DNA of 48,295 nucleotides, from the NCBI GenBank assembly GCA_003151825.1, contig PLYO01000048.1:1-48295 (forward strand), given 5' to 3'. This document shows positions 257-48,295 of the stretch, in pieces. A program made the translations under genes and the position numbers. This DNA comes from Ignavibacteriota bacterium. Its GTDB lineage: Bacteria; Bacteroidota; Ignavibacteria; Palsa-1295. Within the stretch, counting starts at the first letter, position 1; every line of letters starts with the position of its first letter. The notes below the pieces were generated by a model that saw only the letters and a list, made by a program, of their open reading frames with translations, had not been told where the DNA came from and did no database searches.

Positions 257-347
257 ATATTCCTATCTTGCTCATCTCTAAAATCTCTTAAAATCTTGGT
301 TTAGACAATTTCGAATGATTTTTCTCGCTCGACCGTGTTATGACATT

Positions 348-3176
348 ATGATAAAATCTATCGTTTTTTGCCTCGCGCTTTTCTTCGTCGTTAATGAGTC
401 GGTTCATGCGCAGGTCAGCATCACGCTCGACAGCACCACGAAATTTCAGACCATTGAGGGCTGGGGATGCGGCGGCGATCTTTTCAGCATGATGAATTAT
501 GGCCTCGATCCCTCGATCCAGGACTCATTTAATTTCCAAACGCTGAATTATCTCATCGACGATCTCGGTCTTACCGGCTCGCGGATATGGGAAGTTGGGC
601 CGCGCATCGACGGAACACCCACCGACGATGGCAATTGCGATTCCGTAGATTGGTCAAAATTTCAGGTTGGCGTGGAAGATCCGACAATTGCAAAATACAT
701 GGTCTATTTCAAAAACCGCGTGAATGCGGAGGGATACCAGACTAACTTCTATTCCAGTCCCGGCTACCCGACCCATGCCTCCGATGCAAAACCGTGGGTC
801 ATGTACGATCCCGGTGAACGCGCCGAGCAAATTTGGGCGAACTCGCTTTGGTGGAAAAAAAATTACGGCATCGACATTAATTACGATGTGATCTATAACG
901 AACCGTCGGGCTCCGTAACTTCTTCTGTCCTCGCTGACGATATTAAGGCACTCGCGCCTCGGGCGCTGGCCCACGGCTTAGTGACGAAGACGCAATACGC
1001 CGAGGCCGTTGCGCCGGAAACCGATTGGGGATTTATTACACCGGAGCAAAGCGATGCCGCGCTATGGCCGCTTGTTGGTCGCATTTCGTACCACACTTAT
1101 GGCACTGCCGACCCATACCGTTCTTACCTCCACTATTTTGCGGATTCGCTTGGCATTACAACCGCTCAAACGGAAATGTATAATCCTACCATCGACGATA
1201 TTTTTAATGATCTTCTTTTAGGCGGTACATCCTATTGGGAGGTTGCGTATAGCGGTTCCTTGACGCTGACGAACACGGCTGGCAACACGGGGTTTACACC
1301 CTCCGGTACGTATTTCCGCATGAGGCAAGTGATTCATTATGTCAGGCCGGGAATGGTGCGTATCGCTGCTACATCAAGTGATTCCAACATGCACGTTATG
1401 TCCTTCGTGAAAAATGGAAAAGTAACCACTGTATTCGAAAACCTGGGCGCGGATACCACGCTTACATTGACAGGATTGCCGCCGGGCCAGTATGGTATAT
1501 CTCAATGTCCATCAGGTGCAAGTGCATACGCAGAGCTTGGAATTAAAACGGTTGGCGCGAATGGCACATTAAGTTTTAATTCCGGAGTTGCCGGATACGC
1601 TTCGTCCGTCTATCCATATTCCGGTCCGAATCATGCGCCCGATATTACGAGCTGGGTTGCAACGCCGGGATATGTCGTTGCCGATACAACTACGACCACG
1701 CTTTCCGTTGTTGCCAACGATGCAGAACTCGTCCCATTGACGTATAATTGGTCTATCGCCTCGCAGCCTGCTGGAGGAACTGCCGTCATTGTAAATCCAA
1801 CCAAAACCACGACACTCGTAACCGGACTTTCCGATGCTGGCACGTACATTTTTCAGATCAATGTATCCGATGGAATTAATGTTTCTTCAAAGAAAGTCTA
1901 TTTGATCGTGTATGCTTCTAATCCTCCGCCGGTGTTGTGGCAGGCCGGATTTCGAATTGCACAACCATATGGACTTGTGTTCACAAACTTCCCGGATACG
2001 ACGCATGCAAATATCGAGCTGCCAATTTCGTCGGTCACCACACAAGTCGGCATTGGCGATCTTGCCAACGATGCCTTTGACGGACGAGGGAAATGGACAA
2101 TTGTAAGTCAACCGCCCGGTGGTGTTGCGATCGTGGATACAACATACTATATCTATATCAGTATTCGTGGCACCGTGACTGGGATGACCGTTCCCGGCGA
2201 TTACGTTTTTCAGTGTAACGTAACCAATCCCGGCCATCCCGATCTTACATGTCGAGTGATCTGCACGGTGCATCCTGCAAGTTCGGGCCCGATTATCAAT
2301 TCTATTTCCGCAACGCCTCCAAGTCCTACGCTCCCGGCAGATTCGACGATGCTTTCAGCAAACACGACCGACACCAGCGGCCAGGAAATGCGCTATTGGT
2401 GGGAAGTAAAGTCTGTTCCGGCGGGCGCGAATCCTATCTTTGCTCATCAGGGACTTGCGGCATCGAACGTGAGTGGATTAACCGTTCCTGGAGTTTATAG
2501 TTTCACATTGCGTACATTTGATGACATTCACGAGACGACGAAAGATTTTTCTCTGCAAGTCAGTAAAGGTTCCGGCATTTCCGATACTATGCTGACCGTG
2601 ACTCCACCAACGTGGGATGCTGGTTTGCTAACCGCTGGACTTGCCGATACTGCTTTGTTCACCATTACAAACAAATCCTCGGCTGGAGTAACAATTTCAG
2701 GGAATGTAGGAAATCCTTCAGACACAGCTTTTTCTGTCATATCAGGATTGGGGCCGTACTCACTTGGCGAAGGTGGGACATCTCTATTCCGAATCCGCTA
2801 TATATCGGATGGCAAGTCGCACAAGTCGGAGCTGACCGTTACAGGCCCTCGCCCACAGGATAAGGTTGTATTTGCGTTATCGTCGGACTCTGCAAGCGGC
2901 AATGCAGGTGTTCCGAGCACAAATTATTCAGAAGATGTTTTGCTGTATCCGAATCCTGTTTCCGATGAAGTGAATGTTCAATGTCTGGGACAAGGGAGTA
3001 ATCTATTGCGTTTGAGTTTAGTAAACACTTTGGGCCAGGTAGTTCGAATGATGAATGCTCCAGAGGAAAATGCCGGTGAAATGACTCTTTCGCTTCAATC
3101 GTTACCTTCTGGAATTTATTTTCTGACGATACAAATCGACGATCAAATCATTACGAAAAAAATAGTTAAGCAATAG
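348..3176 (+). CDS. Secreted GH30-like glycoside hydrolase with Ig/PKD-like repeats and T9SS sorting domain
   Basis: Likely an exported endo-acting glycosidase. The start at 348 gives a clean signal peptide (MIKSIVFCLALFFVV...AQ); an in-frame ATG at 315 only adds 11 residues ahead of it. The catalytic (beta/alpha)8 region spans roughly residues 25-310, beginning with FQTIEGWGCGG, which resembles the opening strand of GH30. YNEPSG places the likely acid/base Glu at 185, and AQTEMYN places the likely nucleophile at Glu276, the clan GH-A arrangement. A beta-sandwich follows, then two or three Ig/PKD-like modules (about 430-780), a second beta region, and a C-terminal type-A sorting domain (YPNPVSDE...LPSGIYFL...KKIVKQ). 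It should be secreted through the Sec system and T9SS, and be surface-bound or released. Substrate cannot be told; GH30 versus a neighbouring clan-A family is not certain. Confidence 0.8.
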   Translation: MIKSIVFCLALFFVVNESVHAQVSITLDSTTKFQTIEGWGCGGDLFSMMNYGLDPSIQDSFNFQTLNYLIDDLGLTGSRIWEVGPRIDGTPTDDGNCDSVDWSKFQVGVEDPTIAKYMVYFKNRVNAEGYQTNFYSSPGYPTHASDAKPWVMYDPGERAEQIWANSLWWKKNYGIDINYDVIYNEPSGSVTSSVLADDIKALAPRALAHGLVTKTQYAEAVAPETDWGFITPEQSDAALWPLVGRISYHTYGTADPYRSYLHYFADSLGITTAQTEMYNPTIDDIFNDLLLGGTSYWEVAYSGSLTLTNTAGNTGFTPSGTYFRMRQVIHYVRPGMVRIAATSSDSNMHVMSFVKNGKVTTVFENLGADTTLTLTGLPPGQYGISQCPSGASAYAELGIKTVGANGTLSFNSGVAGYASSVYPYSGPNHAPDITSWVATPGYVVADTTTTTLSVVANDAELVPLTYNWSIASQPAGGTAVIVNPTKTTTLVTGLSDAGTYIFQINVSDGINVSSKKVYLIVYASNPPPVLWQAGFRIAQPYGLVFTNFPDTTHANIELPISSVTTQVGIGDLANDAFDGRGKWTIVSQPPGGVAIVDTTYYIYISIRGTVTGMTVPGDYVFQCNVTNPGHPDLTCRVICTVHPASSGPIINSISATPPSPTLPADSTMLSANTTDTSGQEMRYWWEVKSVPAGANPIFAHQGLAASNVSGLTVPGVYSFTLRTFDDIHETTKDFSLQVSKGSGISDTMLTVTPPTWDAGLLTAGLADTALFTITNKSSAGVTISGNVGNPSDTAFSVISGLGPYSLGEGGTSLFRIRYISDGKSHKSELTVTGPRPQDKVVFALSSDSASGNAGVPSTNYSEDVLLYPNPVSDEVNVQCLGQGSNLLRLSLVNTLGQVVRMMNAPEENAGEMTLSLQSLPSGIYFLTIQIDDQIITKKIVKQ

Positions 3177-34275: not shown

Positions 34276-35946
34276 TTATATGGATAAAGAGGCCGGGTCC
34301 GATGCTCCGAAGAGCGAGCGAAGTTTTCCGAACACTTTGCGCGCCTCGGGAATTCGGAATAGGGCATATCCGCCGGCAGTCAGGAATGCCATCGATGCGG
34401 CCGCGATCAGCAGCCGAAGAAGGGGAGCGAGTGATGGCGGTATTTGGCTAACTATGAAATACGTAATTAGTATGCTCATCGTAACAATAGCGAGTATCGC
34501 CATCGAGCGCCATGGACGCAGGCTCTGGCCGATCCATCGAGTCGTCAGAATGCTCTCCGTCGCGCAGGCACCGGCATTGGCGCATTGTGTCCCAATCATG
34601 GCTCCAAGTCCGCCAAAGCTCAGGATGAGAAAATAATTTACAATGAGATTGAGCAATCCCCAGCTTAATCTATTCACGAAGACAACGCGCTCTTTTCCGA
34701 TAGCGACGAGAGACGTTATATGCATCCCGCCTCCAAAAATAATGACTGTAATCGTTTGGATGACAAGACTGGCAAAAAGAATCGGCTGCGCGCCCGCGAA
34801 TCTATGTCCATAGACGACCTCGATTACGAGCGGAGAAAATGTAATCATAAACGCAAAGATCGGTCCGGTGCTTACCGTTTGATAGCCGGAAATCTCACGC
34901 CGGGCATTGAGCAGGCGCGGATAATGGAATCGCGCGGGTTTCCCGACTTGCTGCGGCAAAGGATGTTGTTCGTCTTCATGGGCCAGTTCGCTGAATACAC
35001 TGACGAGCGTTCCCCCAAGTCCAAATAAGAAGACATATTCCGTCATAAGCGCCAGCTGCGATGCAGCAGCATACAGGCCAATATCCCGCGCGTTCTCGCC
35101 GAGCAGGGCGCGCATCATCAGAATGTCAGGCTGCCGTCCCAATACGGTGCTGAGCACGTCCGATCCCCACGTCGTGACGCCATAAAGCATGAACGGCAAT
35201 AGAACAAACATGCGGACGCGGCTCGGCTTGCTTACAAAACCTGCGAGACTCGTGCGAAGATGCGCGAATTCTATTCGCAGTCCTCGGCTCGATGCTCGTT
35301 CGACATGACGGTTCACCCAATAAAGGAGCAGCGCTCCGTTCACAACCGCAGCGATGGTAAAAAGTGCGACGGCCCATTCGAGCGAGAGATTCCCGGAAAC
35401 GAGGAAGATCAATCCCGCAGAAAGCAGCGCGAAACGTGTAATGAGACTTGCGTAAAACACCCACTTGACTTGCAAAAGACCGATCAGCGTAAACGTCGAA
35501 AAGGCAACGACGGCCTGAGCAAAAAGATAGACAACGAAGTACGGCCATAATTCCCGGATGCCGCCGAGCGCAGCCGCAAGGCCAGAAAAGTAATTCGGAA
35601 GAACAACCAACACGAGGAGAAGGAGACCCACCAGCATAAGATTGACGAACACTCGGAAGGCGAGCAGTTCAATCAAAAAGTGCCGAATGCCTTCGATCTT
35701 CGTATTACCGAACGATTGTTCACCGCGCAAAATCCGAGGAAGATAACGAAGCAGGACACCATCGACCGCAAATGCCCCGACGATTGCAAGCGTGGTGCCG
35801 ATGGAGATATAGACCGCGTAGCTGCCGCCTAACTCGGGACCAAATTTCCGAACGACGAGGATAGCATAGAGATAGATACCCCCATATTCGACGATTTTAT
35901 AAAGATGGTTCCATGCGAAGCCTCGCGTTATACGATGCGTGGTCAT
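34276..35946 (-). CDS. Polysaccharide flippase (Wzx/MATE-like)
   Basis: 556 residues with about 12-14 membrane helices (for example IYLYAILVVRKFGPELGGSYAVYI near the start) and the usual basic loops. It would move lipid-linked oligosaccharide units across the inner membrane for assembly. The ATG overlaps the glycosyltransferase stop by 4 nt (35943-35946). A mid-protein loop of about 35 residues (ELAHEDEQHPLPQQVGKPAR) is unusually long. No polymerase (Wzy) is in the set. Confidence 0.88.
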   Translation of the reverse strand: MTTHRITRGFAWNHLYKIVEYGGIYLYAILVVRKFGPELGGSYAVYISIGTTLAIVGAFAVDGVLLRYLPRILRGEQSFGNTKIEGIRHFLIELLAFRVFVNLMLVGLLLLVLVVLPNYFSGLAAALGGIRELWPYFVVYLFAQAVVAFSTFTLIGLLQVKWVFYASLITRFALLSAGLIFLVSGNLSLEWAVALFTIAAVVNGALLLYWVNRHVERASSRGLRIEFAHLRTSLAGFVSKPSRVRMFVLLPFMLYGVTTWGSDVLSTVLGRQPDILMMRALLGENARDIGLYAAASQLALMTEYVFLFGLGGTLVSVFSELAHEDEQHPLPQQVGKPARFHYPRLLNARREISGYQTVSTGPIFAFMITFSPLVIEVVYGHRFAGAQPILFASLVIQTITVIIFGGGMHITSLVAIGKERVVFVNRLSWGLLNLIVNYFLILSFGGLGAMIGTQCANAGACATESILTTRWIGQSLRPWRSMAILAIVTMSILITYFIVSQIPPSLAPLLRLLIAAASMAFLTAGGYALFRIPEARKVFGKLRSLFGASDPASLSI

Positions 35947-37154
35947 GCGTTTACCTTTCCGCGTGAGGCCGTTGTCCGTGTTCTATGCTCGTGACAAAAA
36001 GAGATGGCGTCGAATGCATCTCGTGCAAATCGCTGCCAGCTAAAATGCTCGGCGCGGGTCTGTGCTTGCGTCAGCAGGTGGGCGTGTTTCTCCGGGCTAA
36101 GCGTTATGGCGCGAACAAGCTCTGTAGATAACGCCATGGAATCGTTCTCGGGAAATACAAAACCTCCATCGCCAATCACTTCCGGGATTGCACCTGACGA
36201 GGAGCCAATGACGATCTTGCCGGCGGCCATTGCTTCGACCAACACGCGGCCAAATTGCTCGGCCCACATGGCTTTGCGGCGGCTTGGAAGCACGAGAATA
36301 TCGAGCGTGTGCATATAATCAGGTACTTCACGATGTGGAACAGATGGAATGTGACGCAAGTCCAAAGCGATCCCTCGATCGCGCGCCAGTTGCAGCATCG
36401 GTTGTTCCCATTCGCCACTTCCAACCAAAAGAAGTTTTGTTTTCAGCCGAGGATGATCTGATTTCAATTTTGTATACGCCTCGATCAGCAAATCGACGCC
36501 CTTCATTTCGAGCATCCGTCCGACATATCCGACGACAATGTCGTCACGAGAAATACCGAGCGAATCACGAATTTTTTTCACGCGGTCTGGTCGAGGAGTC
36601 TGATACGCGGAAGTATCGACTCCGTAGCCGACCGTTCGAATAGGATTTTCAAATCCGGCTCTGCGCAGCACCTCGATGCCATCCGTATTCGCAGTTAGCG
36701 CATAATGCATGTGCGAAAGCGTTCGCCGCGCGACGTTACGATAAAAAAAGGAAGGACGATAATCGAATTGCGTAAGGGAAAGATTATTCCATGTAAAAAA
36801 TACGACAGGAATGCGCGGCGCGAAAAGGGATTTGGCCAAAAGAATCTCCGCCGCGAAAACGGAGAACGGCTCCTCCATCAAAAAAAGCACATCAGGGCGC
36901 GAGAGTTGAAAGGCTCGGCGAAGACCGGAAATATAAAACCCACGATTTTCATAACCCCGCCAGGCGGTTTTGCCAATGACCGTCGCATAAGGAGACTTTG
37001 CGCTAACGCCATCGCATGGCATTGGGCGCCCATTCATTCGCCACGCATCGACGGTGAGAAGCGTGAGTTCCATGCCGTTAAGGGAACCCAATTCATCCGC
37101 GCACCGGCGATAGACGGAGCTTGCAAACATCGAATTGACGATCAGCGTCCGCAT
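35943..37154 (-). CDS. Glycosyltransferase family 4
   Basis: 403 residues in the GT-B fold. Donor-binding E-x7-E motif in EQFGRVLVEAMAAG (E and E eight apart), VGYVGRMLEMKGVDLL at the start of the second Rossmann domain, YGVDTSAYQ linker. It transfers a sugar from a nucleotide donor to a growing lipid-linked chain on the cytoplasmic face; the sugar cannot be predicted. The 4-nt overlap with the flippase gene and 18-nt gap to wzz place it within the operon. Confidence 0.9.
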   Translation of the reverse strand: MRTLIVNSMFASSVYRRCADELGSLNGMELTLLTVDAWRMNGRPMPCDGVSAKSPYATVIGKTAWRGYENRGFYISGLRRAFQLSRPDVLFLMEEPFSVFAAEILLAKSLFAPRIPVVFFTWNNLSLTQFDYRPSFFYRNVARRTLSHMHYALTANTDGIEVLRRAGFENPIRTVGYGVDTSAYQTPRPDRVKKIRDSLGISRDDIVVGYVGRMLEMKGVDLLIEAYTKLKSDHPRLKTKLLLVGSGEWEQPMLQLARDRGIALDLRHIPSVPHREVPDYMHTLDILVLPSRRKAMWAEQFGRVLVEAMAAGKIVIGSSSGAIPEVIGDGGFVFPENDSMALSTELVRAITLSPEKHAHLLTQAQTRAEHFSWQRFARDAFDAISFCHEHRTRTTASRGKVNA

Positions 37155-37172
37155 GGGCTTCGAGCGTTGGAA

Positions 37173-38540
37173 TTAGAGCTTGATTTTTTGCTTCTCGACA
37201 GACGGGAATGCAGAAGAGCCGGTCGTATGGGGCTGGATGGGTACTAACCATTCGGCACGGTTGTCACGCCGCATCGCACGGAGCACATTGACAAGGCGAT
37301 AATGGGCTTGCGGGCGCGAACGTACATCGGAAGCGAACCTTTGGAATGCTATGTAACTAAAACCAGCGCCAAGACCGAGGAGAAGTCCCAGAACCGTATA
37401 AAGCGATCGGTTTGGCGACGACGGGCCAGCTGGGAGTTGAGCGGCATCGAGCACCTGAAGAGAAGGAAGATCGCGTTGCTCCGAGATTCTCTCTTGTTCG
37501 AGTTCCTCCCGCAAATAGCCTGTGACTTGCTCGAGTACCTTGACTTCACGCAGACATCCGGCGAGTTCTCGCGAGAGCGCCGGCGCATTTTTTAGAGCAA
37601 GGATATATTCTCCCGCCCCACCGCTATCGTATTTATTCAGTTCCTGCTGTGCTGCTTCGAGTTCCGCGCCAAGGGCCTGAATACGGGGAGCATTCGGGCC
37701 TAACTCATGTGCCTCGACGTTCCGCTCCATTTCAAGTTGTTCCTTTTGGCTGGTAAGCTTCGCGGCCGCCGAGACGGTCGCCGCAAGCTGTTCCGGAAGC
37801 GCTATGGCTTCATGCGACTCCTGAAACTGTTCGAGACGCGCATACGCGCTGTCGAGTTCGACCCTTTTGTTATTGTATTCTTGCTCGACAAAGATTCGCG
37901 TATTCTTCGCGCTCGTCATCAAGCGATCTCGGTTAAAGCGGTCGAGCGCCTCGACAAATTTATTCGCAACATAAGCCGACATTCGTTTTGCCGAGTCCCG
38001 CACCGTACCGGACGCAAAGCTTGATGCATTGAGCGTAACCGTGACGGTCAGCACGCCCGTGCGCAACGCCTCGCTCAGGACGCTGCCACGGAGAGCATCG
38101 GTGATCGACTTGAAGCTTGTATCCCTGCGGTGAAAATATGTGTGGATCTCGGGGTCCGCCGCAACATCCTCCGCGATCGATCGGGACTCGACAATCGTCT
38201 TGAAGATATCCAGCGTGGGGTTGCCACCCACTTCTCCTTTCAGTAAATCCAATGCCGACGCTGAATTTGCGAGAAAGGCAAGCATCCCGCCCGCGCCCTC
38301 GTGTTCTGGCGGCATCACGGTTGCCGTAGCAACGAAAGTCTGAGGACGAGTAAAGGAAAAAAGGAGCAGCGCAATGGCGCCGCACATCCCGAACAGCGCT
38401 ATTCGACGCCAATGCTGCGCTACATTCGTAAGAAAGTCCATTCGCGCGGGAGCCTCGGCAATGGCCGCATCATCGTGAGGGCCATATTCCTTAGCTCCAG
38501 TTTGGGGATGATTCATGGGAGTGCTTTCTTTCTCGCTCAT
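37173..38540 (-). CDS. Chain-length determinant/polysaccharide co-polymerase (Wzz family)
   Basis: 455 residues. Cytoplasmic N-terminal stretch, first membrane helix near 48-66 (IALFGMCGAIALLLFSF), periplasmic Wzz domain with long coiled coil (about 190-345; LDSAYARLEQFQESHEAI, AELEAAQQELNKYD), and second membrane helix near 385-405 (LYTVLGLLLGLGAGFSYI). A short cytoplasmic tail follows and the tyrosine-kinase half seen in Wzc is absent. Sets sugar chain length or opens the export channel. 6 nt before it ends the wza gene. Confidence 0.88.
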   Translation of the reverse strand: MSEKESTPMNHPQTGAKEYGPHDDAAIAEAPARMDFLTNVAQHWRRIALFGMCGAIALLLFSFTRPQTFVATATVMPPEHEGAGGMLAFLANSASALDLLKGEVGGNPTLDIFKTIVESRSIAEDVAADPEIHTYFHRRDTSFKSITDALRGSVLSEALRTGVLTVTVTLNASSFASGTVRDSAKRMSAYVANKFVEALDRFNRDRLMTSAKNTRIFVEQEYNNKRVELDSAYARLEQFQESHEAIALPEQLAATVSAAAKLTSQKEQLEMERNVEAHELGPNAPRIQALGAELEAAQQELNKYDSGGAGEYILALKNAPALSRELAGCLREVKVLEQVTGYLREELEQERISEQRDLPSLQVLDAAQLPAGPSSPNRSLYTVLGLLLGLGAGFSYIAFQRFASDVRSRPQAHYRLVNVLRAMRRDNRAEWLVPIQPHTTGSSAFPSVEKQKIKL

Positions 38541-38546
38541 TGAAAG

Positions 38547-40211
38547 TTATAATCCGCTCTTTAGCACGACGATTATTCCGACGAAAATAGTAATGAACTG
38601 AGCGGTCAGCGCGGTGATTGCGCCGACATCCTTCCAAAAATGGGGTTCCTCTTGCGGAACAATAATCATATCGCCCGGCGCGATGATGTACGTTGTTTCA
38701 GAGGCGGGATCGATGAAGGAACCGGTCTTCGAATCGACGACCCGGACGGCGCCGCGATCAGCCGTGCTCGAAAAGCCACCTGCTTTTGCAATATAGTCCC
38801 GCCAGGAGCCTCTTTCTATATACTCCACGTTTCCCTGCATATTCACGGCGCCGGATACGGTGACATAGCCCATCGCGCGAGGAATCGAGATAGAATCCTC
38901 TTCCCGTAGGATTAGATTTTGCGATTCATCGCCCGCCATCAGAGCTTTGAAGTTCACTACCATAACCGAGGGATAAATGCGGGCGGAATAATAATCGTAT
39001 TGTTCGTCCGTCAGTCCATCCTTCCGGAGCTGCGCCATGGATTGAAGACGCCTGAATTCCGCATCGCTAAGGATCGAGCCGATCCCTGTGCGCCGAATGA
39101 GCAGCGCCTCGTCTAAGGAAGCCGTTGGGAGCACGCCGCCGGCGCGATCGATAATATCCTTGAGCCGAGTGGTTCCCGGAGCAATAGGATATTGGCCGGG
39201 AAACGGCACTTCGCCGCCAATGCCGACGAGACGGGGAACGTGATATTGTGAAAAAGCGCGAACAAAAATTTGATCGCCCTCATGAAGAGCGGGATTATCG
39301 CCGCGAGCATAATCTTCCCAGAGCCACTCGGCATGGACAGGATCGGAATCCGGGAAACGAGCGATTTCTATGGAGTCGCGGTCCGCCGCAGGTAAGAAGC
39401 CGCGGCAAAGGGTCAGTGCGGTCGAAAGCGAATCACCCTCGACAAATTCTAATCGCTGTGGCGAAGAAACGCTCCCGGTCACAAGAACATAACGCTTTGT
39501 GGGCAGCACCACAATCACATCCCCAGCCTCGATGGGTGGGTTTGCAGAAAGATCGCCCACGGCGTAGTACCGAACGAGATCGGCGCGAACTCGAAGCTGC
39601 CCGCTAAGGGTTCGAATTTGAATGTTTCTGAGTGAAGAACTCGTCTTGAATCCGCCGGAGCGGTCAATCACTTCGCTCACCCGTTCGAGGGCCGTCGCGG
39701 TTTGAATTCCCGGAGAAAGCACTTCGCCGAGTACGCTCACCTTTACGGTACGAAGCCTACGAAGCGATAGCGACACGTCCGGCGATTTATAGTCCCGCGC
39801 CAAGGCGAGGCGAACTTTCTTTTCGGCCGCAGTGATCGAAAGTCCTGCTACTTCAACGTTTCCGACGCCCGCGATGATAAGCCCACCCTCAGGCGTCACC
39901 ATAAGGTCCTGGTCGAGGCCGTGAATGGCATAGACATCGAGATGGATGCCATCGCCGGGACCGAGCAGATACGTAGCCGGATCGACCGGCTGCTCCAGCG
40001 CCTGCGCGTCCATTCCGGCGAGGCTGGCCTTACGACCGGCCATGAGCCGTTCCGTCATGGTATCCGCGACGCCAAGCTGGTTTTGGAACGAGGTGTAAAG
40101 CTCATTCGAGGTAAGTTGCGCGCGCGCGGAGGGCTGAAATGCGCCCAATTCCAATATAATCGTGGCGAGAGCAAAAGCGAGCTTTATTCTTTTTAGTAAA
40201 ATGGCAGTCAA
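38547..40211 (-). CDS. wza: Polysaccharide export outer-membrane protein (Wza-like, SLBB domains)
   Basis: 554 residues if started at TTG 40211, which gives a signal peptide (TAILLKRIKLAFALATIILEL...ARAQ). A longer frame from TTG 40349 adds 46 residues ahead of it and is less likely; no ATG exists in the N-terminal region. The poly-export domain starts at LLGPGDGIHLDVYAI (about 85-99), then several SLBB beta-grasp domains (VLVTGSVSSPQRLEFVEG; VGIGGEVPFPGQYPIAPG; VTVSGAVNMQGNVEYIERG). A C-terminal membrane helix (AQFITIFVGIIVVLKS) may span the inner or outer membrane. First gene of the operon. Confidence 0.92.
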   Translation of the reverse strand: MTAILLKRIKLAFALATIILELGAFQPSARAQLTSNELYTSFQNQLGVADTMTERLMAGRKASLAGMDAQALEQPVDPATYLLGPGDGIHLDVYAIHGLDQDLMVTPEGGLIIAGVGNVEVAGLSITAAEKKVRLALARDYKSPDVSLSLRRLRTVKVSVLGEVLSPGIQTATALERVSEVIDRSGGFKTSSSLRNIQIRTLSGQLRVRADLVRYYAVGDLSANPPIEAGDVIVVLPTKRYVLVTGSVSSPQRLEFVEGDSLSTALTLCRGFLPAADRDSIEIARFPDSDPVHAEWLWEDYARGDNPALHEGDQIFVRAFSQYHVPRLVGIGGEVPFPGQYPIAPGTTRLKDIIDRAGGVLPTASLDEALLIRRTGIGSILSDAEFRRLQSMAQLRKDGLTDEQYDYYSARIYPSVMVVNFKALMAGDESQNLILREEDSISIPRAMGYVTVSGAVNMQGNVEYIERGSWRDYIAKAGGFSSTADRGAVRVVDSKTGSFIDPASETTYIIAPGDMIIVPQEEPHFWKDVGAITALTAQFITIFVGIIVVLKSGL

Positions 40212-40765
40212 ATTTCGTTCGTAAAATGCAGAGATAACGATAGAGAACCGTAGGAGTGTCAAAAATAGAACCTCAGGCGTCTGGAGGTGGTCACTTAAAG
40301 GGTTGAGCCTCTCATTCGGTTCCGAAAAGCCTATTCCGAAACAGGGCAATTTTGAATGACTAATTTAGCGCAACAGCATTTGTGCTTCATGAACTGTGGC
40401 GTTTCTGAGCAAATTTCGCCATTTGTTGCCACCAAAGCGGCTAATGACCTGCCATATAGTACACTACAACAGGCCACAATAGATTTTCAAGGAACTCCGG
40501 TGATCGATGTCCCCCAAGCTAAGGGTATACCCGCCCAGGACTTTTCGATCGCCCCCAGTGCGCCATTTGATTTCATTGTGCAGGGATCAGTCATGCCTGT
40601 ACTGGCAGCGGACTGCGTACACTCTCAACGCTCGCAGCCAGTCTCTACGCATAAAAGGCAAAAATGTTTCACAGTATTATAAGATTTTTGTATTTATCAT
40701 CTAAATTGCTCAAATCAGTCCAAAGTCGCCAATTTTGACGTTGTGGTCGGTGCTTCCAGCACGAC
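40212..40765. other. Gene-free stretch between two minus-strand operons
   Basis: Holds the likely promoter region of the polysaccharide operon. One plus-strand frame (40356-40682, 108 codons, rich in Gln, Ser and Pro) has no recognisable domain and a poor ribosome-binding site, and I do not accept it as a gene. A 6-bp dyad ACTGGC/GCCAGT around 40605-40648 is the clearest structure. I do not see a known riboswitch such as GEMM. Confidence 0.35.
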
Positions 40766-43126
40766 TTAATGCGAAACCGATAGCTTCACCGCCCTCCCCA
40801 TGATCGCATTCGAGACGTGCGCATAATATATCCCGCTCGGAAGGTTTGAGCAATCTAAGCTGAGGCACAGGCCAAGCTCCGCATCCGGCGTGGCGTTGTA
40901 TAGCGTGGCCACGACTTCGCCCTCCTGGTTCACCACCTCGACTATTGCCGGTACGCCGCCCGGCAAATCGGCCACGCATATTCTCGTAGTGGAATTTGCA
41001 GGATTCGGATGCACTGTTACATCGAGACCGGTGGTATCCGACACTAAGCCCGGATGGCCATCGGCCATTTTCATATTACCACATTCCGCATAGACTGTAT
41101 CAGTCGGAGCCCCATAGGCATCGCCTGAAGTATTGTAAGTGGAAACTTTGAAGATGGGATAACAATCAAAAAAACAGATGTCCGTACTCGTTGCGTCCGC
41201 CGCAAGGCCCTGAATCAAGGTATAAGTGGATCCGTCGTCGTCGGACTGATAAACATGTATCCCTTCCGGAGCATTGAGGTATTCAACATCCCCGTATTCT
41301 TGAGGAGTCCAGCTAAGTGTGACATGAAAGGAATTGCCAATTAATGAGCCGTCGTCAGGTCCTGCGCAATCCTCCCCGATTTGCCCATTGCTTAGGTTCT
41401 TCACCTGCGCTGGTCGCATGAGAATGGAACGATCCCCCAGGGTATACTGATAAATATCTTCGATGGAACTATCCTCAACAGTGTAGAAGAGGCTCTTGAT
41501 GTTATTCTTAAAATCAGAGACGCCGCTGTATGAATAAGAGGGAGACGTTACTTGAAAAATTGACAAAGGCTCGCCGATATCGTCGTTATTCTTATTATCG
41601 AAGTCTGGATCTCTAAAACCTGGATCATCATACTTGTCATAGACATTGCAGAGAAAGCAAGCAACCTGTTGTTGAGCCCCTATGGTAGCATAATCGGACC
41701 TGAATGTCCAAGCTTCAAAATCCTGGACATCACCTACATCAATAATATCTCCATAATTCGCTCGCGTGTACCATCTTACAACTTGTGAATGAAATTGCGC
41801 CCAGCCCTCGTCAATGTTGTACGCATCCGTCGTAAACTCACTTAAGAGTGAGCTATCCATTAGCAGCCAATTGCAATAATGACCGAATTCATGATCTGGA
41901 TAAGCCGCCGAATAAGCAATTGGATTAAACTGAATGTACGGCGGTATAGATGGAGAGAAATCAGCATCTGCTCCTGCCAACGCGGAAATTATAGTTGTAA
42001 TTTGAGGCGGGGTTACGCCCGGTCGCAAAATATCATATTCACGCGCCATTTCCATATTCCTTAGAATCGGGCCATCGACTGAGTTCAATTTAATTGTATC
42101 TCCTGTTTCGTAGATAAGATTAGTATTATTGCATGGAATACAGATTCCATACGTTTCACGAAACGTGTGCCAGGGTGGGCATGTCGTTCCCGAGCCATTA
42201 ATTGTGTACGTGCTGACTTCATCTCCTGGATCACTTGCGAGCCGTGCTGCATCGTTCGAGGCTGTTACGAGAAGTTCCGCGTTCGCATAATTGGCCCATG
42301 TCGTATCCGTGATGCGAAAATCGAAACTAAAGTTACCATCGGCATCGCATTTACATGAATGTATGCCCGGATCAGTAAGCCCGTAGCCAGAAGGAGTACA
42401 TCCAGCTACCGGATGCGTAAAAGTAGTTATATTTAATGAATCCGACGAACACCCCTGAATAGCACCCGCAAAGGGCAAAGGATGAAAAAGTAAAACAACC
42501 GTTACGCCGTAAACTCCTCTCATAATGGTTGTATCGTGTCCGATTATTGCGGAGTCCGCTTGTGATTGGGCAATATCATGGTAATCAACTACGCCTTTAA
42601 TAATGATATGAGCTCCCGCTCCCAAAATTCCCAGAGCGGTCATCGTTCCAGTATCGTTTGCATTATTTCCAAGATTGAGAACCCTAAATCTTGTCGGTGA
42701 ACTTTCTACTTCGAGATGTGTGTAGGCATAATTTATCATTCCCTCTGGAGCAGAAATCGCTTTAAACATTGCCTCGACGAGCGAACCGCCATATCCAATA
42801 AGCTTAAGCGGAATGGAATACGTATATTCAGAACCGGAATCGACGGCAATGGTCGAATCCGAACCGCTGCCGCCAGTGGGCGGCGCAATGTTTCCGGTGC
42901 ATCCCATACTAAAAACACCCGCTCCGGTCACGTTCGCGTGAAACCGTATTAACATGTGGATGGTATCGCCTACATGCGGTATCGGGCTTGACACCACGGC
43001 AGTTGAATCAACGCTGAATGTTGAAGGCGGGAGAGTATCATAAAACTGAGCTTTGCTTAAACCGGGATTTATTAAGCAAGCGAAAACACAAAAAAGTGCG
43101 AACTTGATTTTGAAATGATGATTCAT
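40766..43126 (-). CDS. Secreted HEFGH-type zinc metallopeptidase with T9SS sorting domain
   Basis: 786 residues. Signal peptide (MNHHFKIKFALFCVFACLIN...AQ), then beta-rich regions (about 25-330). A zincin motif is seen at H412-E-F-G-H416 (YPDHEFGHYCNWL), with E440 in NIDEGWAQFHS as the likely third ligand, 24 residues on, a gluzincin-like layout. A fibronectin-like stretch (about 605-690) leads to a C-terminal type-A sorting domain (VHPNPANSTTRICV...LPSGIYYAHVS). A CKCDADGNFSF segment may bind calcium (D-x-D-G-N). I cannot name a peptidase family. It closes the seven-gene exported-protein run. Confidence 0.72.
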   Translation of the reverse strand: MNHHFKIKFALFCVFACLINPGLSKAQFYDTLPPSTFSVDSTAVVSSPIPHVGDTIHMLIRFHANVTGAGVFSMGCTGNIAPPTGGSGSDSTIAVDSGSEYTYSIPLKLIGYGGSLVEAMFKAISAPEGMINYAYTHLEVESSPTRFRVLNLGNNANDTGTMTALGILGAGAHIIIKGVVDYHDIAQSQADSAIIGHDTTIMRGVYGVTVVLLFHPLPFAGAIQGCSSDSLNITTFTHPVAGCTPSGYGLTDPGIHSCKCDADGNFSFDFRITDTTWANYANAELLVTASNDAARLASDPGDEVSTYTINGSGTTCPPWHTFRETYGICIPCNNTNLIYETGDTIKLNSVDGPILRNMEMAREYDILRPGVTPPQITTIISALAGADADFSPSIPPYIQFNPIAYSAAYPDHEFGHYCNWLLMDSSLLSEFTTDAYNIDEGWAQFHSQVVRWYTRANYGDIIDVGDVQDFEAWTFRSDYATIGAQQQVACFLCNVYDKYDDPGFRDPDFDNKNNDDIGEPLSIFQVTSPSYSYSGVSDFKNNIKSLFYTVEDSSIEDIYQYTLGDRSILMRPAQVKNLSNGQIGEDCAGPDDGSLIGNSFHVTLSWTPQEYGDVEYLNAPEGIHVYQSDDDGSTYTLIQGLAADATSTDICFFDCYPIFKVSTYNTSGDAYGAPTDTVYAECGNMKMADGHPGLVSDTTGLDVTVHPNPANSTTRICVADLPGGVPAIVEVVNQEGEVVATLYNATPDAELGLCLSLDCSNLPSGIYYAHVSNAIMGRAVKLSVSH

Positions 43127-43159
43127 GGTGGTAATGGTTTTTAATTGAAAAATAATACG

Positions 43160-44470
43160 CTATTGCAGCGTTTTAAGAATGCAAATTTGATATAAGTCCA
43201 CATATCCCGGAGGCTCAGTAGCCAGTTCGCCGCAGCTATAAACGATACTGGCATCATCCGGCGACCATTCAGGAAAAATACCTACCCATTTCCCCTGGTT
43301 GGTTGGATTTGTTTCTAATACTCTCCTGGAACCTGTGCCTCGGTCAACAATTCCTATTTCACTCGGAAAATTCACAGGATCGTTGGGATCGAAAGCATAA
43401 AAAGGATAATTGCTGTATAGAATTTTAGTTCCACTATGGCTGTACCGCACCCACAGTGCGGGATTTACGGTTGCAGTATCGAACGTGACAGGAAGTGTAT
43501 CAAGTGTGTGATCTGCGAGATCGTATTCGATGAAGAGCGGCGGACGAAAATCCGAGGTCGATCCAAGAAGCAGCATTTTCCCATCCGGGCTGACATCGAA
43601 ACCGTTAACCATTTCAGATATTCCTAAGTCCGAGATATACTTGAGTAGTAGAATATTCGTGTCCGCCTTGCGGTCGAAAAGATAATAGCCCGCAGCGATA
43701 TTCATGCCCCCATAAGTATAAAAAATTATCGTATCATCTTCACCACGATAATAGACAGCATTCGAGATAGAATAGGCAGAGTCGAGAACTTTATAAGAAC
43801 CTGTCTGAATTTCATACTCCTGAAGTTGACCACCCCCGTATGTTCCTCCTACTGATATTAAGTGAGAACTGCTTGAATCTACGGCCAAACAATACGGGAC
43901 ATATTTCTGGGAATCAAATATAACATCTTCTATTGTATCCAGATTAGAATCGAGTTCGAAAAATCTGTCTGGCCCAAAAGTTGCACCACAATAAATACGG
44001 TTCCCAATCCACGCCGCACATGGGTAACTCCCATCATAGGTATACTGAGCAACCGAATCCCAGAATGTAAAAGGTAATTGTACTACATTAGTATCCGTCT
44101 CGAATTCAGGGAATGTGAGGCTATCGAATCCATTATTCTTAGTCTTATAAATTGGATAAAACCCTTGTGGATAATATGGAGGATACCCCCCCGAATAAAC
44201 AGAGAAGAATTGATTCCCAAGTGTGTCTGCAAATAGAATACTGTCAATTCCTGAAACCAAGAATGGAAAAGGATACGGGATTACATCGCCAAAATAGTAC
44301 ATCTCATAATAGTATGGAAGAGCGCCATTCGTAAACGTCATCTTCGATACGCTGTCCACATCATACGAAAGTTCCGTACCGTTAGTGTCGCGAACATGCA
44401 TCTTCCACTGCTGCGCCATTATGGGCGTTGCACAAAAGAGAAAAAGCAATAATATAGCGAGTTTTTTCAT
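43160..44470 (-). CDS. Exported beta-propeller-like protein, copy B
   Basis: 436 residues, signal peptide MKKLAILLLFLFCATPIMAQ. The N-terminal 110 residues hold three units ending in a strand of type (I/V)DS(I/L/V)xF (YDVDSVSKMTF, VSGIDSILFAD, NNGFDSLTF). The rest reads as PD40/TolB-like propeller blades (VNGFDVSPDGKMLLLGS, RYSHSGTKILYSNYP, PEWSPDDASIVYSCG). It overlaps the preceding T9SS protein by 4 nt (ATGA). Strong paralogue of 45573-46907. No sorting domain, so it probably stays in the periplasm or outer membrane or is exported with a partner. Confidence 0.7.
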   Translation of the reverse strand: MKKLAILLLFLFCATPIMAQQWKMHVRDTNGTELSYDVDSVSKMTFTNGALPYYYEMYYFGDVIPYPFPFLVSGIDSILFADTLGNQFFSVYSGGYPPYYPQGFYPIYKTKNNGFDSLTFPEFETDTNVVQLPFTFWDSVAQYTYDGSYPCAAWIGNRIYCGATFGPDRFFELDSNLDTIEDVIFDSQKYVPYCLAVDSSSSHLISVGGTYGGGQLQEYEIQTGSYKVLDSAYSISNAVYYRGEDDTIIFYTYGGMNIAAGYYLFDRKADTNILLLKYISDLGISEMVNGFDVSPDGKMLLLGSTSDFRPPLFIEYDLADHTLDTLPVTFDTATVNPALWVRYSHSGTKILYSNYPFYAFDPNDPVNFPSEIGIVDRGTGSRRVLETNPTNQGKWVGIFPEWSPDDASIVYSCGELATEPPGYVDLYQICILKTLQ

Positions 44471-44940
44471 TTAATCACCACCATTTGCTTCGTTTGGGTT
44501 TCACCGTTAAAGCGTACTTCGTAAAAATACGCTCCGCTCGTCACGGGTGCGCCGCGATCATTGAGGCCGTCCCAAGAAATCTGGTTTTGCCCCGCTGGGC
44601 AACTCGGCAATCCGATTTGCCGGATTACATACCCCTTGCTATCGTAAATCGAAATGCTTACGGTTCCCCCCGTTGCGATGGAGAACTCGATATTCGTTCC
44701 CGCCCGCGATGGATTCGGAAAATTTGGCGATACTTGTAAGCCGGGTGCAACCGGAGCAGCCTGCATTACGCCCGAAGTGACCGAGTCGAAGGTAATTTTT
44801 TGAATCGAAGCGAGAGGAATCGCCACGCGCTGGCCATTTTTGAGATTTACAACAAGGCTATCGTCCACACCCTGCCCGTGGGCGCGGCCCGTGGCGGCTA
44901 AGAGCAGCATGGCTGCAAAAAAAGCGGTTCGTTTCAGCAT
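44467..44940 (-). CDS. Small exported protein with FlgD-like/T9SS sorting domain
   Basis: 157 residues. Signal peptide MLKRTAFFAAMLLLAATGRAHGQ. Residues 25-52 carry a VVNLKNGQRVAIPLASIQKITF unit related to those in the propeller proteins. Then the sorting domain (NFPNPSRAGTNIEFSI, SGAYFYEVRFNGETQTKQM). There is nothing else, so it is a sorting domain plus a small tag-like unit. The ATGA overlap with the propeller gene suggests the pair acts together. Its 3' end is nearly identical to that of 46904-47521 (over 50 bp identical), pointing to recent duplication or gene conversion. Confidence 0.75.
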   Translation of the reverse strand: MLKRTAFFAAMLLLAATGRAHGQGVDDSLVVNLKNGQRVAIPLASIQKITFDSVTSGVMQAAPVAPGLQVSPNFPNPSRAGTNIEFSIATGGTVSISIYDSKGYVIRQIGLPSCPAGQNQISWDGLNDRGAPVTSGAYFYEVRFNGETQTKQMVVIK

Positions 44941-44961
44941 AATTTCCTCACATTAGAAAAA

Positions 44962-45540
44962 TTAAACCCAAAACTTAATCAGTGAACATCGGAACGCCGC
45001 ATAAGTTGCAGGGAAATATTTATGCGCGCTACCGAGCACAGGCTTTCCCATCGTGATTTCCCATGCCATCGGGCAGTGCAATTTATAATTCACCGATTGC
45101 CAGCTTAGAGGATCGAAATATCTGTCGAAGGGACCATGCGATCCATCCAGCTCAAAGCTGCTCCATTCTACACCTGGTTTCATAGCAGCATCGGAGGGAA
45201 TATAGGCCTTCACCATGGTATCTCCCATAAAGATGGGGTATGAATAAGGAATTGCTCTTATTCGAGCCATGACAGTATCGATAGGAACATAATTTGAAAA
45301 TGAGAGAAGAAAATAGTGGTTACCAAAATAGCCCGTGTCCGTTTGCCACGGCGCTTCCTTCTTCATGGTGAAGCTCCCGAATTCGCTATCGAGCGATGCA
45401 AAACCCGTGCGTATTGCCGGGTAATCCGTATCGATTGCTTCCCATGTCTCGAAAATCGAATCGCTCTGCGTTCGACCGATTCGAGTAATGCTAAGAAGAA
45501 AAGCTGCGGAAAGAAGGAGTGTTTTGATCGAGTTTGACAT
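44962..45540 (-). CDS. Exported protein with the shared WxxxDTxxxxxR domain
   Basis: 192 residues with signal peptide (MSNSIKTLLLSAAFLLSITRIG). Core TWEAIDTDYPAIRTGFASLDSEFGSFTMKKEAP aligns with two neighbours, SWEVIDTSYDSIRSIFGNVEDQFGSFMLHK (46904-47521) and RWTQLDTSFHSLRAMFDSIQQQWGNFVLAK (47524-48295), at W, DT, R, F, G and K. No sorting domain. Ends in FRCSLIKFWV. I do not recognise the domain. Confidence 0.65.
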   Translation of the reverse strand: MSNSIKTLLLSAAFLLSITRIGRTQSDSIFETWEAIDTDYPAIRTGFASLDSEFGSFTMKKEAPWQTDTGYFGNHYFLLSFSNYVPIDTVMARIRAIPYSYPIFMGDTMVKAYIPSDAAMKPGVEWSSFELDGSHGPFDRYFDPLSWQSVNYKLHCPMAWEITMGKPVLGSAHKYFPATYAAFRCSLIKFWV

Positions 45541-45572
45541 GTTCGTAATGAGTTTTGATTAAAAATTTGCCG

Positions 45573-46907
45573 CTATCGCAGCGTTCTTAAAAAGCACAAA
45601 GAACCTATTCCTACATATCCCGCCGGTTCATAGTCGAGGATTCCCGCCGTATAGACGATTTGCGTATCGTCGGGCGACCATTCGGGATAGACGCAGACCC
45701 AAGGAAACGTGGTCACAGGGTTCACGTATAGAACTTGTTTCTGAAGCGTAACGCGATCGATGATCCCGACCTCGCTACTGTCGTTAGAGGGTCCGTAAGG
45801 GTAGTTACTATAAAGTATTTTCGTGCCGTCGTGGCTATACCGGAGCCAGAGCAGCCAGCGGCAATATGACGTATTGAATGGAACGCGCAACGTGTCGGAC
45901 GCGTGAGTCGTGAGATCGTATTCAACAATGCGCGGCATCCGGTAATAGTCAACGGATGGAATGAGAAGCTTTTTCCCGTCCGGACTGATGTCGAAGCCGT
46001 TGACTACCTCTCCGGGGCCGAGATCCGAAAAGTGATGTAGAAGAAATGTTTTTTGCCCGGTGGCTCGGTCAAACAAATAATACCCTGCATCCGCCGGGTT
46101 CGTGTTTGTGTCCGAATAGCTTCCGTAAGTATAATAAATAATATTCTCTGTTCCCGGGACATAAACCCCACAGGAATTATTTCCTCCAGAATCGAGCACT
46201 TCGAGATTACCGGTAGAAAGTTGGTACTCAAAAAGCCGTCCTATAGGAAAACCGGAAGAGGAACTAGGTCCGAATAGCAACCGCTTCCCTGAGCTGTCTA
46301 TACTCATCGTTAATGGCTCAAAGACCGAGATCTCCGAATCTTTGATTATTTCCAGAGAATCATTGATATCAATGGATAACAGGGGCCATGCAGAGCAGTA
46401 AATACGGTTCCCTGTCCACACGGCGCACGTCGGGGCAGCGAGTTCGCTATCCCTGAAAGTGTTATTAAAATACTCAACATTGGGCGAGACCACGTTACCA
46501 TTAATGGAATCATTGACAATCGGGGGTGGCTGTGGCGCGGGCGCGAATGTGAGGCTATCGATGTGATTCAGAGAATAAATATCCGAACCAGTCGTGCCAA
46601 ATAAAAACCAATAATTCTTATTTGGGTAATAGTGATAAAAGACGAAGAGCGATTCGCCATACGTGGAGTCGTATGCAACCTTCAAGCTATCGATATTTTC
46701 TATCGAGTATTCCTGCATGGATGAATCATAAAACACGCGGAGGAAACTCGTCGCCCATCCCGTCGTGTCATGCGTGAAGTGCATCGTGGCAATTTGGCTC
46801 ACGTCATACGTAAACACCGTGCTATCCGTTTTGTAGATGAGCATTCGTTGCGCGTGTGAGGCGTGCGCGCAAAAAATGAAAAGCAATATGACAGAAACTT
46901 TTTTCAT
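45573..46907 (-). CDS. Exported beta-propeller-like protein, copy A
   Basis: 444 residues, signal peptide MKKVSVILLFIFCAHASHAQ. Same plan as copy B: three N-terminal IDSLxF units (YDVSQIATMHF, YSIENIDSLKVA, YSLNHIDSLTF), then propeller blades (VNGFDISPDGKKLLIPS, RYSHDGTKILYSNYP, PEWSPDDTQIVYTAG) and an ending with a conserved Cys (SLCFLRTLR versus QICILKTLQ). It overlaps the upstream T9SS gene by 4 nt (46904-46907) like copy B. Role unknown; propellers of this type often bind peptides or carbohydrate. Confidence 0.7.
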   Translation of the reverse strand: MKKVSVILLFIFCAHASHAQRMLIYKTDSTVFTYDVSQIATMHFTHDTTGWATSFLRVFYDSSMQEYSIENIDSLKVAYDSTYGESLFVFYHYYPNKNYWFLFGTTGSDIYSLNHIDSLTFAPAPQPPPIVNDSINGNVVSPNVEYFNNTFRDSELAAPTCAVWTGNRIYCSAWPLLSIDINDSLEIIKDSEISVFEPLTMSIDSSGKRLLFGPSSSSGFPIGRLFEYQLSTGNLEVLDSGGNNSCGVYVPGTENIIYYTYGSYSDTNTNPADAGYYLFDRATGQKTFLLHHFSDLGPGEVVNGFDISPDGKKLLIPSVDYYRMPRIVEYDLTTHASDTLRVPFNTSYCRWLLWLRYSHDGTKILYSNYPYGPSNDSSEVGIIDRVTLQKQVLYVNPVTTFPWVCVYPEWSPDDTQIVYTAGILDYEPAGYVGIGSLCFLRTLR

Positions 46908-47521
46908 TTAATCACCACCATTTGCTTCGTTTGGGTTTCACCGTTAAAGCGCACTTCGTAAAAATATGCGCCGCTCGGCACGGGCGCGTTGCGATTGTCA
47001 AGGCCATCCCATGTTATTTGGTTTTGTCCCGCTGTGCAATTCAGCAAATCAATGAGCCGGATTAAATTCCCCTTGCTATCGTAAATCGAAATGCTTACGC
47101 TTCCTGTCGTATGGATAGAGAAAACGCGGCTCAATTCTACGTTTGTATCGCTTCGATCAGGAAAGTCTTTATGGAGCATGAAGCTCCCAAATTGATCTTC
47201 AACATTACCAAAAATGGAGCGAATACTATCGTAGGACGTATCGATTACCTCCCACGAAACAGTAAGATCGGAATCGACGCTCACGGAATCAAGCGGGAGA
47301 ATGCTTCCATAAGCGAATTTAACCCTGAAAGGTCCGTTCAAAAAAAGCTTACCGTACGTCGGTGAAGTCGAACACGTATCGACCAGCACCGAGTCCGGAT
47401 TATGCCATGAATTTCCCCAGACCGTCTCAACGTGGGAAAACATCGGGCTTTGGGCACGGCAAACATCATTGAGGACGAAAACAGCAAAGATGGGAACAGC
47501 GAAACAACGTATTGCGATCAT
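46904..47521 (-). CDS. Exported protein: shared domain joined to a T9SS sorting domain
   Basis: 205 residues. Signal peptide to about residue 24 (MIAIRCFAVPIFAVFVLNDVCRAQ), a segment with VDTCS, then the shared SWEVIDTSYDSIRSIF domain, then directly a sorting domain (SISIYDSKGNLIRLIDLL...QTKQMVVIK) lacking the usual YPNPF-type entry: DFPDRSDTNVELSRVFSI stands where copy 44467 has NFPNPSRAGTNIEFSI. It appears to be a chimera of the two families. It is 2 nt downstream of gene 47524-48295. Confidence 0.68.
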   Translation of the reverse strand: MIAIRCFAVPIFAVFVLNDVCRAQSPMFSHVETVWGNSWHNPDSVLVDTCSTSPTYGKLFLNGPFRVKFAYGSILPLDSVSVDSDLTVSWEVIDTSYDSIRSIFGNVEDQFGSFMLHKDFPDRSDTNVELSRVFSIHTTGSVSISIYDSKGNLIRLIDLLNCTAGQNQITWDGLDNRNAPVPSGAYFYEVRFNGETQTKQMVVIK

Positions 47522-47523
47522 AT

Positions 47524-48295
47524 TTATGGTTCGAAAACAATTCTAAAAATCTGGTTAGCACACTTAATCGAGTACACCCCTGCGGGTAGCCCTGTTAAAT
47601 CGATCATAAAAGAGCCCGTTAAGCCGGGCAGGTCGTAATGCCGTGCGAGCTCCCCTAAAACGTTGAATACGTCCACGGCAGATGCCATCATATCCTTCAT
47701 GGTTATGCTGATCGTCGAGTGTACCGGGTTCGGTAGAAACCTAATAGCCTGCGACCCATTCGTGCTTGGAACGTTAACACCACCGCTGCCCGTAACACCA
47801 TAAGGTCCACCACTGTAGAAATTGCTTATGCTGTCGTTAGTGAGCGTTGAAGTAACGGAGAAGACATTGGCATACGAATCAAAATACATCAAATACTCTC
47901 CGGCGAGCGGGCTCGGATTCGTTCGGTTTGGGTCAGACTTGGCCAGAACAAAATTACCCCACTGTTGCTGGATGCTATCGAACATAGCCCTAAGGGAATG
48001 AAAGCTCGTATCTAGTTGGGTCCATCGCATCAGTATATTCGAATCCACCGGGTAAGCGGGTAACATGAAAACATCACTGTCGAATTGTATTACGAAGTCC
48101 CTCTTTGCGTAAAGGCTGTCCCATATATCGCAGGGTGCGCCTAATAGCGAGCATGTGTCAATGAAGCAAGAATCGGATTTCTGCCAGTAATTTCCAGCTC
48201 CCATCGGGCACACCCGGTTGAGATATTCTTCCGAAAGGGCAAGGCATGATGAATCCGCCTCCTGCGCCCCGGCGCGGCCCGTGGCGGCTAAGAGC
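47524..48295 (-). CDS. Exported protein with shared domain and T9SS sorting domain (5' end outside window)
   Basis: The frame stays open to the right edge. The first residues visible, LLAATGRAGAQ, are the end of a signal peptide almost identical to that of 44467-44940, so only about 10 residues are missing. It has an SDSCFIDTCS segment and the RWTQLDTSFHSLRAMF core. The sorting domain is FLPNPVHSTISITM...LPAGVYSIKCANQ. Third paralogue of the small-protein family. A GTG at 48211-48213 is internal, not the start. Confidence 0.7.
   Translation of the reverse strand, partial: LLAATGRAGAQEADSSCLALSEEYLNRVCPMGAGNYWQKSDSCFIDTCSLLGAPCDIWDSLYAKRDFVIQFDSDVFMLPAYPVDSNILMRWTQLDTSFHSLRAMFDSIQQQWGNFVLAKSDPNRTNPSPLAGEYLMYFDSYANVFSVTSTLTNDSISNFYSGGPYGVTGSGGVNVPSTNGSQAIRFLPNPVHSTISITMKDMMASAVDVFNVLGELARHYDLPGLTGSFMIDLTGLPAGVYSIKCANQIFRIVFEP

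Follow-up and report, generated by a model that had tools for sequence, protein, structure and literature searches.

The minus-strand gene run at positions 40766 to 48294 of contig C44 from an Ignavibacteriota bacterium has at its core one copy of a widespread two-gene carrier/cargo module and is not a seven-gene system. The contig, all 48,295 bases of which were analyzed and which is referred to here as the window, belongs to a genome of 3.59 Mb in 51 contigs with an estimated contamination of 6.57%. The first gene of the module encodes a carrier of ~155 amino acids (aa) that consists of a signal peptide, one ~25-aa IDSLxF beta unit, and a FlgD-like sorting domain of the type IX secretion system (T9SS). 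The second encodes an untagged cargo protein with the same kind of unit and with a domain that differs between loci (beta-propeller, FISUMP, FGE-sulfatase, LamG, Cthe_2159, or TIG). On the sequence comparisons presented below, we consider it fairly probable that the two proteins form a pair for the T9SS, in which the units dock and the carrier either brings the untagged protein out via the T9SS or keeps it attached to the cell surface.

The carrier of the window (44467 to 44940) comprises a signal peptide, one IDSLxF unit (residues ~27 to 52; 31 bits), a linker, and a FlgD-like T9SS type A sorting domain (residues ~73 to 157). The sorting domain passes TIGR04183 (36.4 bits versus a cut-off of 23), lies slightly under the Pfam sorting-domain cut-off (26.3 bits versus 27), and matches FlgD_ig at 45.2 bits. 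SprA (G000:C27) and the PorU sortase (G000:C49), the two T9SS components looked for, are encoded in the same genome and score above cut-off, and T9SS tags are therefore meaningful in this organism. With a C-terminal sorting domain above the curated TIGR04183 cut-off and T9SS machinery genes in its genome, the carrier is a predicted T9SS type A substrate. Its structural model (mean predicted local distance difference test [pLDDT], 64) contains strands at residues 28 to 32 and 38 to 42 and an Ig-like tail.

An ATGA overlap joins the carrier gene to the cargo gene at 43160 to 44470, which encodes a signal peptide, three IDSLxF-type units (window positions 44096 to 44410; the first unit alone scores individually), and a PD40/TolB-like beta-propeller, with no sorting domain. 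A second cargo propeller of the same family (45573 to 46907; 43% identity in alignment), with units at 46533 to 46847, has an ATGA overlap with the preceding tagged protein. The initial annotation held that the IDSLxF unit is common to the small T9SS protein and to both propeller N termini, and the profile scores (19.0 and 17.4 bits in the propellers) bear this out; no other segment of at least 40 aa in the six frames of the window rose above 4.4 bits. The unit is built of a strand, a turn, a strand, a short turn, and a strand, with a signature like (I/V)(D/N/Q)(S/N/K)IxF. Three consecutive units (~95 residues) are found in the propellers and in a number of FISUMP and other cargos, and LamG-type cargos, by eye, seem to have a single unit. 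The three-unit N-terminal block of the propellers matches the N termini of unrelated cargos (E to 4e-14) and has no consistent Pfam match, with ten families each hit in one member (best E, 0.0047). Among solved structures, the block matched 6d2w (residues 28 to 85, a glycosidase N terminus) weakly at an E of 0.014 and 2gmq at a chance-like E of 0.86; the former match hints at a wider occurrence of the unit and at an existing structure for it. A literature search for 6D2W brought up papers on unrelated subjects.

The identification of both proteins as beta-propellers agrees with the fold predicted for 45573 to 46907, from which the fold of its paralogue 43160 to 44470 is taken. In this modest-confidence model (mean pLDDT, 57), 10-residue blocks range from 53 to 88 between residue 161 and residue ~420, and residues 1 to 137 and the last ~25 residues are mostly below 50. 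Foldseek assigned a TolB/oligogalacturonate-lyase-like propeller (best E, 9e-11; template modeling [TM] scores of 0.35 to 0.53 among the matches listed), with TolB and oligogalacturonate lyase at an E of about 1e-10 and TM scores of 0.40 to 0.47. Membership in the known PD40 or TolB families was rejected, since 45573 to 46907 scored 13.5 bits versus 20.9 for PD40 and 17.6 versus 343 for TolB and 43160 to 44470 gave no match. Neither window propeller matched a Pfam family above its cut-off or, with E values as high as 1 allowed, a sequence relative in the PDB or a sorting family of Pfam or NCBIfam.

Matches to a propeller profile were present in 9 of 61 related genomes and in 21 of 391 genomes of the class, several of the latter matches covering N-terminal units or short stretches only. 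A small tagged protein directly precedes a unit-bearing propeller in the window and in six loci of relatives (G003/L007, G012/L008, G006 L026 and L028, G009/L029, and G010/L034); the only exception among the unit-bearing propellers seen is the second one of the window, whose upstream neighbor is a chimera (46904 to 47521). Two hits of the propeller scan were unexpected: here the small tagged protein was followed by a FISUMP-type (L044) or LamG-type (L017) protein that has the unit and lacks the tag, the types being assigned by family search and by eye.

A profile of nine small tagged proteins (A3) recovered at least 52 stand-alone carriers from 42 genomes, 31 genera, and 9 families among the 391 class genomes. 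Every genome gave background tail matches, and carriers were required to start at query position ≤13 of the carrier profile within an open frame of ≤240 aa; short-frame matches starting at query positions 23 to 26 (G347, G241, and G278) were excluded. Nine of the 52 are profile seeds, seven of which had first been met as propeller neighbors, and three (L096, L102, and L109) escaped open reading frame (ORF) calling and were used in the frame-based test only. The carriers are uniform: 44 of 48 are 149 to 173 aa long, the C-terminal residue is K or R in 45 of 48, and all 25 sampled carriers matched Por_Secre_tail and FlgD_ig (E, 0.01). Among 395 genomes of the phylum, other classes matched the carrier profile only from query position ≥19 among the matches listed, and the three-unit block matched three genomes, all within this class; both scans covered sampled genomes and best candidates only and do not show absence elsewhere. 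As many as three or four carriers, each with a cargo of its own, occur in some genomes (G301, L085 to L087 and L093; G322, L101 and L116; G213, L104, L110, L117, and L123).

The loci retrieved comprised the carriers and as much as about 5 kb of flanking sequence in either direction. When scored with models trained without the genus in question, on a carrier column alignment built from all carriers, a unit of ≥5 bits was present within ~0.4 kb after the carrier in 45 of 52 cases (42 at 8 bits), compared with 18 of 302 control stops (17 at 8 bits), and 17 of these 18 adjoin upstream, or are, a carrier or cargo. Without the seven carriers first met as propeller neighbors, 39 of 45 were unit positive. 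The ORF-based test found the unit in 42 of 48 next genes and in 9 of 355 other ORFs, seven of which have the unit by eye (two of these had been fetched for that reason). Four by-eye positives with a diverged or out-of-frame unit (L026, L108, L121, and L125) were excluded from the counts, and the second window propeller entered no pair count. Carrier and next gene are separated by −4 to 33 nucleotides (nt) in 39 of 48 cases, with 4-nt overlaps in eight. Unit and tail are distributed in a complementary manner in the fetched loci: all 19 ORFs of ≥240 aa that have a carrier-type tail (≥15 bits) lack an N-terminal unit, and all 44 noncarrier ORFs with a unit (≥8 bits) lack a carrier-type tail (a 45th, originally counted, is the carrier of L088). 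The gene order of the pair recurs in related genomes.

Among 46 cargos, the families found included Fib_succ_major (12), TIG (8), Laminin_G_3 (8), Cthe_2159 (6), and FGE-sulfatase (6), with single matches that include GSDH and NlpC/P60. No cargo matched a T9SS sorting family of Pfam or NCBIfam at an E of 0.001 (0 of 46, 45 of which have a visible C terminus; that of L107 is cut). This set takes in the nonadjacent cargos of L086 and L113; L084, where no cargo is visible, L121, whose cargo is out of frame, and L088, L096, L102, and L109 are not part of it. In L121 (1153 to 1903), the unit-bearing cargo start is out of frame with a downstream FISUMP-like region, which indicates a broken gene or a sequencing error. 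One cargo matched a neurotoxin receptor-binding family (E, 6e-5), probably a cross-match among lectin-like folds rather than a toxin.

How might such a pair function? The carrier would be a minimal T9SS substrate, reduced to a signal peptide, one IDSLxF unit, and the sorting domain, and the cargo would supply a signal peptide, one to three units, and the functional domain, without a sorting domain. Both would reach the periplasm via Sec, where the units would pair, those of carriers tending to be basic and those of cargos acidic. The mean net charge of the units is +1.2 in carriers and −0.9 in cargos (P = 5e-6 for 38 pairs, with kinship not corrected for), a difference that suits the pairing of unlike partners. 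The complex could then leave whole through SprA on the sorting domain of the carrier; alternatively, the carrier could be exported, become fixed at the surface, and hold the cargo there. The first route would make the carrier a trans-acting secretion tag, a minisubstrate that binds unit-bearing proteins in the periplasm and takes the complex through the translocon. We put this forward tentatively, as something that may or may not hold; if it does, any fold could become a T9SS cargo by acquiring a short unit at the N terminus and a carrier gene immediately before its own. A study of the T9SS translocon (PMC10994853) places the sorting domain within the SprA pore, and the pairs would test whether a two-chain substrate passes SprA. 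The suggestion of the initial annotation that a tagged partner carries or anchors an untagged propeller finds support outside the window in the gene order, which recurs throughout the class with unrelated partner domains; the carrying or anchoring itself is inferred.

Several observations weigh against a dedicated carrier/cargo pair. First, the two units within a pair resemble each other no more closely than do units from shuffled pairs (428 of 2,000 shuffles reached the observed value), so there is no pair-specific signal of coevolution, and the models of the unit are of low confidence. Second, the pairing has exceptions: the L084 carrier has no cargo in view, two genes intervene in L086, the cargo of L113 is upstream, two unit-bearing proteins lack an adjoining carrier (L126 and L127), and the second window propeller comes after a tagged protein without an IDSLxF unit. 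Third, the carrier-tail model was trained on carriers and misses diverged tails, and the carrier list is a lower bound, because scoring was limited to about nine candidates in each genome and carriers were picked from these by similarity. Fourth, an earlier, stricter lipobox pattern failed to separate the two kinds of propeller described below, matching three of nine without units (in the right place) and three of eight with units (early in the signal peptide).

The propellers suggest that a second means of attachment exists. A lipoprotein-type Cys after the hydrophobic core is present in all nine unit-less propellers (L031, L032, L033, two pieces in L035, and L048 to L051), in none of eight with units, in none of 48 next genes, and in 2 of 48 carriers; the rule used here was fixed after inspection of the data. 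Of the 49 carriers that ORF calling recovered, not one was in a locus of a unit-less propeller. Propellers without units look like lipoproteins, and they would rely on the lipoprotein-type signal as an alternative anchor. In L035 (9139 to 11041), tandem pieces of two lipoprotein-like propellers lie close to the contig end.

This apparent swap of anchors, together with the pairing and the common units, would also fit a role of the carrier as surface anchor only, in which the cargo exits by another, unrecognized route and is captured through its IDSLxF units by a T9SS carrier fixed at the surface, with no need for the T9SS to move a two-chain complex. We regard this as unlikely, because the Pfam and NCBIfam scans of the 46 cargos listed no family recognizable to us as another export signal and because one route shared by so many cargo folds would need an explanation of its own. 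Somewhat less likely again is that the unit is a module found generally at the N termini of secreted proteins, with no escort involved, adjacency reflecting coexpression and the cargo being periplasmic or loosely surface bound. The lack of pair-specific similarity, the unit proteins of L126 and L127, and the hint from 6d2w that the unit occurs elsewhere are all compatible with such a module; the complementary distribution of unit and sorting domain, the charge difference between carrier and cargo units, and the conservation of adjacency over many cargo types argue against it. A single seven-gene surface machine with the W-x3-DT proteins and the peptidase described below as parts, as the initial annotation proposed from tight packing and common modules in the window, is highly improbable, given that W-x3-DT genes are also present in genomes that gave no propeller in the class scan (G001, G004, and G005), that some pairs have no visible peptidase (L029, L034, and L008, whose contig stops within the next gene), and that one W-x3-DT gene is a remnant.

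ORF calling confirmed seven genes on the minus strand that fill 40766 to 48294, with intergenic distances of 33, −4, 21, 32, −4, and 2 nt, both −4 overlaps being ATGA, as had been described. An order of tagged small protein then propeller, said to occur twice, applies to 44467 to 44940 with 43160 to 44470 and fails for 46904 to 47521, which is a chimera of a W-x3-DT (hereafter DT) domain and a carrier-type T9SS tail. Its tail DNA is 82.6% identical to that of the carrier at 44467 to 44940 over 264 bp, and the tail passes TIGR04183 (25.3 bits; cut-off, 23) and stays below the Pfam cut-off (19.3 bits; cut-off, 27). As a fusion of a DT protein with part of such a tail, it is not of the same kind as the carrier, and it was rejected as a second standard carrier, since its N terminus is a DT domain and no IDSLxF unit was detected in the protein.

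The DT proteins are a separate tandem family. Three W-x3-DT-x5-R paralogues had been recognized in the window; W-x3-DT is invariant in all three and in two further copies on contig C51 of the same genome, R is absent from one C51 copy, and the copy at 44962 to 45540 is truncated, with neither the first DT-domain half nor a sorting domain. Since this half and the tail are missing and its 3′ end runs into duplicated 5′ sequence (136 bp with 92% identity to what precedes the first DT gene on C51), 44962 to 45540 is probably a recombination remnant. The DT-domain protein at 47524 to 48294, open at the contig end and cut inside its signal peptide, has a T9SS tail just above the Pfam cut-off (27.3 bits) and below that of TIGR04183 (17.6 bits), and further copies of its signal-peptide DNA are found in the carrier (25 identical bp) and on C51 (91% identity over 45 bp). 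The array is a mosaic that probably arose by recombination between copies. DT relatives elsewhere include four matches on C10 of G005, three on C98 of G011, and one or two in other cases, many extending into the tail region.

Continuation of the operon beyond the window, as first claimed, depends on C51, because the window already spans a whole contig. The end of C51 is identical to window positions 45458 to 45327 over 132 bp, and C51 ends in two more DT paralogues (L006, 10604 to 11757), which is in favor of the claim; the adjacency of the two contigs is not proven, and the end is likely a repeat-caused assembly break beside the array. Polysaccharide genes (Poly_export/SLBB, GNVR, glycosyltransferases, and a DegT aminotransferase) are found close to the array on C44 as well as on C51 (window 35943 to 40349; L006, 1165 to 7829), which agrees with C44/C51 adjacency without proving it. 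At the other end of the window, 315 to 3176 encodes a further T9SS-tagged protein of 953 aa with a PKD-like domain.

The last gene of the run, at 40766 to 43126, encodes a gluzincin-like metallopeptidase (HEFGH...EGWAQF) and is a frequent but optional neighbor of the pair. The HEFGH motif of its original description was found and the T9SS tag was not secure, since the tail is below threshold in both libraries (Pfam, 23.2 bits; TIGR04183, 15 bits). H412, E413, H416, and E440 are invariant across five aligned proteins, and HE(F/Y)GH is present in six of six; HExxH with a conserved downstream Glu is the gluzincin pattern. No peptidase family matched at E up to 1 in Pfam or NCBIfam, tail matches aside. 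Downstream of the pair, the peptidase is present in the window, L026, L028, and L007 (there split over two ORFs), and it stands beside unit-less propellers in L031 and L033; no match was found in L029, L034, or L008, the last of which has its contig end within the next gene. The DT proteins and the peptidase appear to be separate T9SS substrates mixed into this copy of the module.

T9SS substrates are predicted from their own sorting domain. If untagged proteins are exported by paired carriers, the secretomes of this lineage are undercounted, and the pairs would indicate where a set of FISUMP, LamG, and carbohydrate-binding-type proteins without a sorting domain reside. A new docking unit could be defined and searched for, and transport of folded multiprotein complexes by the T9SS would become testable with a natural two-part substrate. 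One account of human pathogens of the phylum (PMC8545088) states that T9SS cargo "invariably" has a sorting domain. Descriptions of such carrier/cargo pairs were not found among the papers listed by literature searches on T9SS with FISUMP, piggyback or trans export, signal-less cargo, FlgD-type tails, and this lineage, subscription papers being mostly outside the coverage.

The window propellers share a predicted fold with TolB and oligogalacturonate-lyase propellers and differ in their extra N-terminal units and the lack of a sequence-family match. With T9SS type A substrates (TIGR04183/Por_Secre_tail) the carrier shares its signal peptide and type A sorting domain; unlike the usual ones, it retains only ~45 to 50 residues, essentially the unit, once signal peptide and tail are subtracted, and the functional domain is on a second, untagged protein. 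Cohesin-dockerin assembly likewise relies on a small module to bring many unrelated catalytic or binding domains to a protein that is anchored. The likeness to that system would be one of principle, and here the genes form one-to-one pairs with a homologous unit on both partners. Type B sorting-domain proteins, as described in PMC9143113, are substrates with their own sorting domain that have a PorP-like partner for surface anchorage. Partner-assisted anchorage would be common to both systems, but in the carrier/cargo module it is the partner that bears the tag and the functional protein that bears none.

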